Below are positions 29,102 to 31,436 of a DNA stretch of 34,884 bases, one piece after another. Under the pieces are notes generated by a model that did not search any database, had not been told where the DNA came from, and was given only the letters and a program-made list of their open reading frames with translations. Every line of letters starts with the position of its first letter. Position 1 is the first letter of the stretch. This stretch comes from Planctomycetaceae bacterium. Lineage in GTDB: Bacteria; Planctomycetota; Planctomycetia; Planctomycetales; Planctomycetaceae. The translations under genes were made by a program, and so were the position numbers. The stretch lies in contig CANJQC010000052.1 in NCBI GenBank assembly GCA_947476295.1, forward strand, positions 1-34,884, in the 5' to 3' direction.

Positions 29102-30088
29102 ATGACCGGTCGAATCTTGATTGGAACAGATGAGGCTGGATATGGGCCGAATCTTGGGCCACTCACGGTCGTGGCGACTGCATGGCATCTGCCCGATGGC
29201 GTCGAACCGCTGGACCTATGGGACGAACTGACGTCCGTCCTCACGTGTACGCCCGAACGTGGTGATCAACGATTGTTTGTGGCGGATTCGAAGAAAGTTT
29301 TCTCACCAGGTAAAGGTCTGGAAGCGCTGGAAGTCGCGGTTTTGGCGTTCTTAAATCTCATCAAGGTCAACACTTCGTCTATCGATCAATTGTGTTGTGG
29401 CATCAGTATGGTATCACAGACTGTTCCGTTTTCAGACGCTTATCTGGCCGAACCGTGGAACACCATGCCCGGCCTGAGGCTGCCGGTTGATTCGAGCGGC
29501 GATCACATCAGCGAATGGGTTACGACGCTGAATACTGAATTACAGGCTCGCGGGATTCAGTTACTTGGCATCCGGGCGAGAATTATGTTTCCGGAAGAAT
29601 TCAACCAGTTGGTGACGCTGGCAGATTCCAAAGGAGTGGTTCTGTCGAATGCCACGCTGCAATTGGTGCGCGATCTTGCGGATTCGTGTGCCGCAGATGC
29701 AGATTTAAGCGACAGACCGACCCTCGTGGTCTGTGATAAGCACGGTGGGCGAAATCGGTACGACGAATTGATCTCGCAGCACTTTGACGATCAGTTTGTG
29801 TTTCGCTTGGAAGAATCACGTGAAAAATCCCGATACCGCATGGGTTCGATGGATTTTTGTTTTCGCACGAAGGCTGAAGAATTTCTCCCGGTGGCTCTCG
29901 CGTCGATGGTTGCCAAGTACACGCGAGAGGTCCTGATGCACCAGTTCAATCACTTTTGGGCACAACACATCCCCGGACTCAAGCCGACTCAAGGCTACCC
30001 GCTCGATGCCAAACGCTTCCGCGAAGACATCGCTGCTTCAGTTGAGTCGCTGAACGTCCCCATAAATCAGCTTTGGCGGAGCCGATAG
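29102..30088 (+). CDS. Divergent RNase HII-like (RNase H fold) protein
   Basis: The 328-residue product begins like RNase HII: GTDEAGYGPNLGPL (D10, E11, G13; type 2 enzymes have G-x-DEAGRGP-x-x-GP). It continues with VADSKKVF (62-65, compare DSKKL), an acidic residue D212 at the end of a strand (LVVCDKHGG), and KAEEFLPVALASMVAKYTRE (257-276), close to the KAD...ASI-AK-TRD segment of RNase HII with E259 at about the place of the fourth metal ligand. RNase HII removes ribonucleotides and RNA primers from DNA and is normally 200-260 residues. This protein has an inserted region of about 100 residues (about 95-205) and Tyr in place of the conserved Arg after DEAG. Start supported by GAGG before ATG 29102. 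It could be a nuclease with altered specificity or a non-catalytic paralogue; the assignment is by pattern only. Confidence 0.72.
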   Translation: MTGRILIGTDEAGYGPNLGPLTVVATAWHLPDGVEPLDLWDELTSVLTCTPERGDQRLFVADSKKVFSPGKGLEALEVAVLAFLNLIKVNTSSIDQLCCGISMVSQTVPFSDAYLAEPWNTMPGLRLPVDSSGDHISEWVTTLNTELQARGIQLLGIRARIMFPEEFNQLVTLADSKGVVLSNATLQLVRDLADSCAADADLSDRPTLVVCDKHGGRNRYDELISQHFDDQFVFRLEESREKSRYRMGSMDFCFRTKAEEFLPVALASMVAKYTREVLMHQFNHFWAQHIPGLKPTQGYPLDAKRFREDIAASVESLNVPINQLWRSR

Positions 30089-30861: not shown

Positions 30862-31206
30862 TCAGCGTCCGAGAACGACATCGATTCCATTGAGAATGGC
30901 TTCCAATTGCTGGCTCGAAAGCTTGCCGCTGCGTTCAGTGAGCAGCTGTTTGTCCAATGCCACTATCAGAGAGACATTGGCAACCGAATCTTTTGGCAGC
31001 CCAGTTACCCCCGTCTTCAAAAGTACATTTCCAGGAGCTGTCGCCCATTTGAGATTGCTCGTCAACGGAACGCAAACGACCGTTCCGATCCGACTTCGAT
31101 TCATCGCATCGCATTGGACGACGACGACAGGCCGTCTGAAACCGGGTGCCGAACCAATCGGCTCGCCGATGTCAGCCCACCAGACTTCGCCCTGAGCGAT
31201 TACCAT
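30862..31206 (-). CDS. mazF: MazF/PemK-type mRNA interferase toxin
   Basis: The 114-residue product has the PemK/MazF beta-barrel pattern: QGEVWWADIGEP...GFRRPVVVVQ (Arg of the active site), VVCVPLTSN (the usual threonine), and a late LIVALDKQLL...G segment. Such toxins cut RNA at short sequence motifs as ribosome-independent endonucleases. The gene overlaps the end of the antitoxin gene by 7 bp, so the two are translationally coupled. It is probably repressed and neutralised by that partner. It lies next to dyad-rich sequence, the kind of place toxin-antitoxin modules often occupy. Cleavage specificity unknown. Confidence 0.92.
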   Translation of the reverse strand: MVIAQGEVWWADIGEPIGSAPGFRRPVVVVQCDAMNRSRIGTVVCVPLTSNLKWATAPGNVLLKTGVTGLPKDSVANVSLIVALDKQLLTERSGKLSSQQLEAILNGIDVVLGR

Positions 31207-31436
31207 TCCACTCGCCGCAGCGTTTGTCGCGCGGCCTCACGGGTGAAGTCATTCAGCGCAGGCCCCACCTCATCAACCACCGTGTTCATCGCCGCCGCGA
31301 CCTGGTCGTCGTCGTGCCGGGCAACGAATTCGGCCAGAGCTCTGGTGTAGAGCTGACTGCGCGAAGTCTGTAATCGCTCCGCCAATCGCTCTGCTTCCTC
31401 AAAGACCTTATCTGGGATGGAAATGGCAGTCTTCAT
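31200..31436 (-). CDS. mazE: Ribbon-helix-helix antitoxin
   Basis: The 78-residue product starts with the ribbon-helix-helix pattern MKTAISIPDKVFEEAERLAE followed by a serine/arginine turn and second helix (TSRSQLYTRALAEFVARH), as in CopG/MazE-like antitoxins. The C-terminal part (about 45-78) is polar and should wrap the toxin. It would dimerise, bind its own promoter and neutralise MazF; Lon or Clp degradation frees the toxin in the family. The symbol is given by partner and is tentative because the DNA-binding fold is ribbon-helix-helix and not the AbrB fold of E. coli MazE. A near-consensus promoter ends six bases before the ATG. Confidence 0.88.
   Translation of the reverse strand: MKTAISIPDKVFEEAERLAERLQTSRSQLYTRALAEFVARHDDDQVAAAMNTVVDEVGPALNDFTREAARQTLRRVEW

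Follow-up and report, generated by a model that had tools for sequence, protein, structure and literature searches.

A gene in the window, the whole stretch of 34,884 nucleotides of Planctomycetaceae DNA that was analysed, encodes a protein that resembles ribonuclease HII and yet departs from it, and it raises the question of whether this is the ordinary RNase HII of its host or a relative put to some other use. A first-pass annotation had described an enlarged, divergent RNase HII-like protein with altered active-site residues, possibly a paralogue with a different substrate beside a housekeeping RNase HII encoded elsewhere. The description of the protein largely stood, the paralogue did not. 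With a probability of roughly 0.77, we read the query protein as an active metal-dependent type-2 RNase H doing RNase HII work in Planctomycetota.

Translation of the open reading frame confirmed a genuine gene for a protein of 328 amino acids (Table 1). The series of motifs had been read correctly at first pass and runs, as in RNase HII, from GTDEAGYGPNLGPL over VADSKK (D62-S63-K64) and D212 to KAE259E...ASMVAKYTRE. The likeness to RNase HII goes beyond chance: RNase_HII was the single Pfam family above cut-off (39.2 bits, cut-off 25.8, E 8.8e-10), and relatives of the query protein were present in 52 of the 59 genomes searched. In five of these 52 genomes two closely spaced matches on a single contig were read as one gene in pieces. 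PF01351 was matched at E 0.01 by all 81 sequences, namely the query protein and its relatives. The best NCBIfam equivalog models for RNase HII reached only 25.3 and 25.1 bits against cut-offs of 123.3 and 167, and the protein was also far below the cut-offs of the RNase HIII equivalog models. Our own profiles scored it with 34.1 bits (HII) and 26.6 bits (HIII), and the best sequence match in the PDB was the RNase HIII 4py5 (4.9e-8; best HII 3.3e-6). By fold and profile the gene product is a type-2 RNase H. We do not class it as RNase HII proper, since the basic residue of the GR(K)G loop is absent and the equivalog score is too low, or as RNase HIII, since the N-terminal domain is missing and the junction Tyr is present.

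A structural model was predicted from the query protein aligned with 80 relatives (mean pLDDT 96.3, pTM 0.95). Rows 1 to 34 of a Foldseek search against the PDB were RNase HII, RNase HIII or RNase H2 complex entries only. VIA-align placed type-2 RNases H at ranks 1 to 25, with Z scores of at least 10.7, and the first protein of another kind at Z 6.2. The closest RNase HII (1eke, Z 17.8, rmsd 3.0, 205 residues aligned) and RNase HIII (4py5, Z 17.5, rmsd 2.4, 186 residues aligned) were tied. Residues 4 to 328 of the model superpose on residues 1 to 212 of 1eke, over the RNase H fold together with the C-terminal helices of type-2 enzymes. Thus, the predicted structure agrees with the enlarged RNase HII-like protein proposed from the sequence. 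The N-terminal TBP-like domain of RNase HIII is absent: the conserved part begins at residue 3-6, the model starts with strand 3-12, and 4py5 is matched only from its residue 72 on (query residue 4). Endonuclease V (4nsp, Z 5.5) and PhoExo I (4yot, Z 6.2) share the RNase H-like core, but both scores are far below 17.8, and an identity with either was set aside.

Residues were compared in an alignment of 72 family members with nine canonical RNases HII and 52 RNases HIII from the same phylum sample. The 72 members comprise the query protein, 11 of its 80 relatives and 60 of the 180 phylum matches described below, hand-picked for spread. The first pass had put the enlargement at about 100 inserted residues; about 120 extra residues are spread over three places and do not form a single block. 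D10 and D62 are 52 residues apart, compared with 33 in the RNases HII; D62 and D212 are 150 apart, compared with medians of 65 (nine HII) and 69 (52 HIII); and D212 and E259 are 47 apart, compared with a median of 31 in the RNases HII. Within the third increase the model forms a hairpin of strands 234-238 and 242-247, which carries E238 (63/72), S243 (66/72) and Y245 (72/72). That this hairpin sits beside the substrate is a guess.

Table 1. Features of the gene and its product; positions refer to the window, fractions to aligned family members unless stated otherwise.
Feature	Position	Strand	Basis
Whole gene, divergent type-2 RNase H, 328 aa	29102..30088	+	ORF, Pfam, model, structural alignment
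G8-P16 (GTDEAGYGP): putative metal ligands D10 and E11; G13-Y14-G15 loop, equivalent to GR(K)G in HII	29123..29149	+	D10, E11 and G13 72/72
D62-S63-K64, DSK motif, by its reported role near the scissile phosphate	29285..29293	+	72/72 at each position; role from PMC3025331
Main insertion, approximately residues 84-150, between DSK and third carboxylate	29351..29551	+	Limits by eye from alignment
D212, third carboxylate, ends strand 207-212	29735..29737	+	81/81 (query and relatives); 70/72, Gly in two
Lineage-specific hairpin, residues ~228-250	29783..29851	+	Gaps in 9/9 HII and 52/52 HIII
E259, fourth carboxylate, loop before helix 262-289	29876..29878	+	E in 40, D in 32 of 72; model
K272-Y273-T274-R275	29915..29926	+	K272 and R275 72/72 each; as in HII
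Y299, counterpart of the HII junction-sensing Tyr (GYP-D motif)	29996..29998	+	Y in 71/72 family members and 8/9 HII
R326, invariant C-terminal Arg	30077..30079	+	72/72

The carboxylates of the presumed metal site are well conserved. D10, E11 and D212 are invariant in the 81 sequences, E259 is kept by 90% or more of them, and all four carboxylates are present in 70 of the 72 aligned members. In the model D10 and E11 end strand 1, and the four residues occupy the places of D18/E19, D107 and D124 of Thermotoga RNase H2 (PMC3025331); judged from topology and superposition, they would cluster. The first-pass placing of E259 at about the position of the last Asp ligand is borne out by the model, with Glu and Asp both common at this position in the wider set (Table 1). 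Glu is the usual fourth carboxylate of RNase HIII (DEDE; PMC9719913), so that the query protein holds the DEDE quartet, with Asp in its place in 32 of the 72 members. Hence, the talk of altered active-site residues was overstated for the metal ligands and holds for the Tyr at the Arg position. In two members, L252 (G141) and L285 (G239), Gly takes the place of D212 (IGKQGGR and VGKQGGR), with the other motifs kept.

The residues that would read the RNA-DNA junction are those of RNase HII with one exception. G13, G15, K272, R275 and Y299 are all present in 70 of the 72 family members and in eight of the nine RNases HII, but in none of the 52 RNases HIII. All 52 of the latter have Arg and Phe at the positions of K272 and R275, and Tyr is not among their four commonest residues at the position of Y299, which our model places in the loop that joins helices 262-289 and 300-309. 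The exception is position 14, where all nine RNases HII and all 52 RNases HIII carry Arg or Lys and not one of the 72 family members does; Tyr is found in 61 of them, confirming the GYG for GRG seen at first pass. Residue 168 is Asn in 71 of the 72 members and in 49 of the 52 RNases HIII, but Asp in all nine RNases HII. Residue 257, equivalent to the phosphate contact K122 of the Thermotoga enzyme, is Lys or Arg in 39 of the 72 members. R326 is possibly a second Arg bracing the 2'-OH loop; its pairing is uncertain, as hhalign matches it to the Arg at the C-terminus of HII, whereas MAFFT sets that Arg at column 322.

According to the account of Thermotoga RNase H2 in PMC3025331, the 2'-OH is held by the GRG backbone and Y163, the loop is braced by R141 and R182, and R22 lies in the minor groove. 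The R22A mutant described there left most activities unchanged, with cleavage at a single embedded ribonucleotide slightly lower and one hybrid substrate also cleaved less, whereas Y163F was strongly impaired. Measured against these mutants, the query family has retained the most important contacts and given up the one whose loss does least harm. The effect of R22A on the single ribonucleotide does mean that the missing Arg may weaken the proposed role itself. The family also offers a natural test of the loop that reads the 2'-OH, as Tyr, both glycines and the Arg that braces the loop were retained and the conserved basic side chain was lost.

The distribution of the family was determined with a profile of 29 members in 199 genomes, a sample of Planctomycetota only. 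The family was found in 180 of the 199 genomes (179 after removal of one cross-hit) and, on the count of 180, in 111 of the 114 genomes with a completeness of 90% or more and a contamination of 5% or less. In the same sample PF01351 marked 68 stretches in 67 genomes, classified as nine RNases HII, 56 RNases HIII and three of another divergent type; this classification leaves out G216, a fragment at a contig end, and PF01351 matches below 42 bits. L180, L183, L200 and L210 were assigned to HIII and L232 to the other divergent type by HMM score. Four members (L041, L048, L050 and L067) come from bins titled Candidatus Kuenenia or Nealsonbacteria; they are typical of the family, L041 being 86% identical to the query protein, and the titles are probably wrong. 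An origin as a plasmid or viral gene was considered and rejected, as the plasmid collection gave no match and viral contigs gave 19 pattern matches and no relative.

The query family occurs alongside RNase HIII in 52 of 56 genomes and alongside RNase HI in 117 of 131, so that the slot for degrading hybrids is usually occupied already. This co-occurrence, together with Tyr299, K272 and R275, which are as in HII and missing from HIII, makes it improbable that the protein is an RNase HIII-like cutter of RNA/DNA hybrids, a reading to which the best PDB sequence match, the Glu259 of a DEDE quartet, the Asn168 common to HIII and the structural tie between the two classes all lend some weight. A true RNase HIII was set aside, as the protein has no N-terminal domain and does have the junction Tyr.

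RNase HII work, the reading that we prefer, is also what the distribution of RNase HII itself suggests. The family was present in none of the nine genomes with RNase HII and in 179 of the 190 others (Fisher p 1.5e-10, relatedness ignored; the nine genomes span eight families and are partly dependent). A match in G194 (5.0e-4) was scored as absent because it is the RNase HII of that genome, with 272.7 bits for the HII profile against 40.1 for the family profile; if it were scored as present, one of the nine genomes would hold the family. Eleven genomes, several of them incomplete, have neither RNase HII nor the query family. RNase HI and RNase HIII likewise avoid each other, RNase HI being present in 13 of the 56 genomes with HIII and in 118 of the 143 others. 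The simple reading is one of two slots, with HI or HIII for hybrids and HII or the query family for junctions, and the query family seems to fill the slot of RNase HII. The distribution adds a further case to the idea that a genome does not retain redundant RNase H genes side by side, here HI and HIII on the one side, HII and the query family on the other.

Three genomes (G211, G173 and G193) hold the query family together with a further divergent type-2 RNase H (L231, L232 and L233, group f50), to which the HII profile gives 42 to 64 bits. If this type were counted as HII, three of 12 genomes would hold both. L231 and L233 have a DETGTGE loop, KAD, Asn for the junction Tyr and about 160 residues past AAS. 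As RNase HI gave no match and no HIII was found in these three genomes, the f50 type may fill the slot of HI and HIII there.

A housekeeping RNase HII encoded elsewhere, as supposed at first pass, was sought in the genome of the window and in its class. PF01351 gave no match in the own genome at E 1e-3, a threshold that misses the query protein too, with 14 of 14 controls positive. Canonical RNase HII or HIII was seen in none of 98 class genomes (the own genome and 97 others): 49 of them had a PF01351 match, ten a match above cut-off, the best with 30.1 bits, and all matches lay in frames of 315 to 499 amino acids. Ten matches were classified, and all of them belonged to the query family, scoring 231 to 336 bits where HII reached no more than 53.4 and HIII no more than 40.3. 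Of 59 class genomes, 58 have an RNase HI, that of the window included; in genomes of group f3 its matches (8e-7 to 1e-14, against mostly about 1e-40) are weak, which points to a divergent RNase HI in that group.

The query protein is hence the sole type-2 RNase H found in its own genome and fits a housekeeping role better than that of a paralogue. A basic residue lost from a conserved position, and insertions of this size, would suit a specialised paralogue acting on a different substrate beside a normal RNase HII, but with no canonical copy found in the own genome or the class genomes, and with the family missing from all nine genomes that do have RNase HII, we regard that as very unlikely. 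Hardly credible is a catalytically dead relative retained for nucleic-acid binding, to which the Gly for D212 in two of 72 members might point, given the complete carboxylates of the other 70 and a DSK motif that is intact in all 72.

Little can be read from the surroundings of the gene. Among 53 places, the loci of 52 of the 80 relatives and the window, the commonest neighbour families occurred at no more than 14, and none of the 14 families listed includes the window; two of them resemble what we take, from their sequences, to be a SixA-type phosphatase and a SufS-type aminotransferase. A scan for promoters and terminators gave 1 and 0 sites, against 1.1 and 1.7 in shuffled sequence. The window also contains a PemK/MazF-like toxin gene (30862-31436, minus strand, Pfam 2.2e-24), with an open reading frame of 78 amino acids directly upstream that overlaps it by 7 bases and may encode the antitoxin.

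As a type-2 RNase H doing the work of RNase HII, the query protein would nick DNA where ribonucleotides are embedded in it and where RNA meets DNA, as at Okazaki primers. D10, E11, D212 and E259 would hold two metal ions. Readout of the 2'-OH would fall to Tyr299 and the main chain of the G-Y-G loop. R275, and perhaps R326, would brace that loop, and K64 and K272 would hold on to phosphates; where RNase HII has the Arg of GRG, the family has Tyr or some other non-basic residue, which would point into the minor groove. The most likely cellular role is ribonucleotide repair and primer removal, and the protein most likely works like RNase HII. The data show the fold, the conservation of residues and the distribution, whereas catalytic activity, substrate preference and role in the cell are inferred.

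A 2025 study reports that Planctomycetota are largely without rnhB (PMC11929135). Such scarcity would leave the phylum without the standard enzyme of ribonucleotide excision. The query family probably accounts for the scarcity as reported there; it probably fills the gap, and it makes the gap testable. The one planctomycete included by Kochiwa 2007 (PMC1950709) was placed in Group E, which, judged by elimination from the other groups named there, has RNase HI only. A search of titles and abstract openings in the open-licence PMC literature found no description of the family.

The relationship of the family to the two known classes was analysed with a tree built from 200 core columns (SH-aLRT support). 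The query family, HIII and HII formed branches with supports of 100, 93 and 91, respectively; a grouping of the query family with HII received a support of only 48, so that the tree does not place HII nearest. Profile comparison with hhalign gave E 2.4e-22 for the query family and HII, 4.3e-15 for the query family and HIII, and 4.7e-28 for HII and HIII, the latter two being nearer to each other than either is to the query family. On hhalign and profile scores HII is slightly favoured as the nearer relative, against which stand the best PDB match, an HIII, and the tree support of 48.

Set beside the known systems, the family shares with RNase HII (rnhB; archaeal 1eke, Thermotoga 3o3f) the carboxylate quartet, the DSK motif, the Lys and Arg of AK..R, the Tyr of GY(P).D and the fold. 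It differs from it in the absence of the GR(K)G Arg or Lys in all 72 members, in the extra residues and hairpin, and in its separate branch. With RNase HIII (rnhC; 4py5, 2d0a) it has in common the fold, Asn168 and, in the query protein, the Glu as fourth carboxylate. Unlike RNase HIII, the query protein is without the N-terminal domain, has the Tyr and AK..R, and shows GYG where all 52 RNases HIII show a GKG loop, lacking its Lys; where true RNase HIII is present, the family usually accompanies it. One may tentatively go further, in a proposal that we would sooner doubt than adopt as a whole: the family might form a third class within the type-2 RNases H, standing as far apart from HII as HIII does, which would read the junction without a minor-groove Arg or Lys by means of Tyr14 and the hairpin residues E238, S243 and Y245, and which, with a metal or substrate preference of its own, would have taken the place of RNase HII across most of one phylum.
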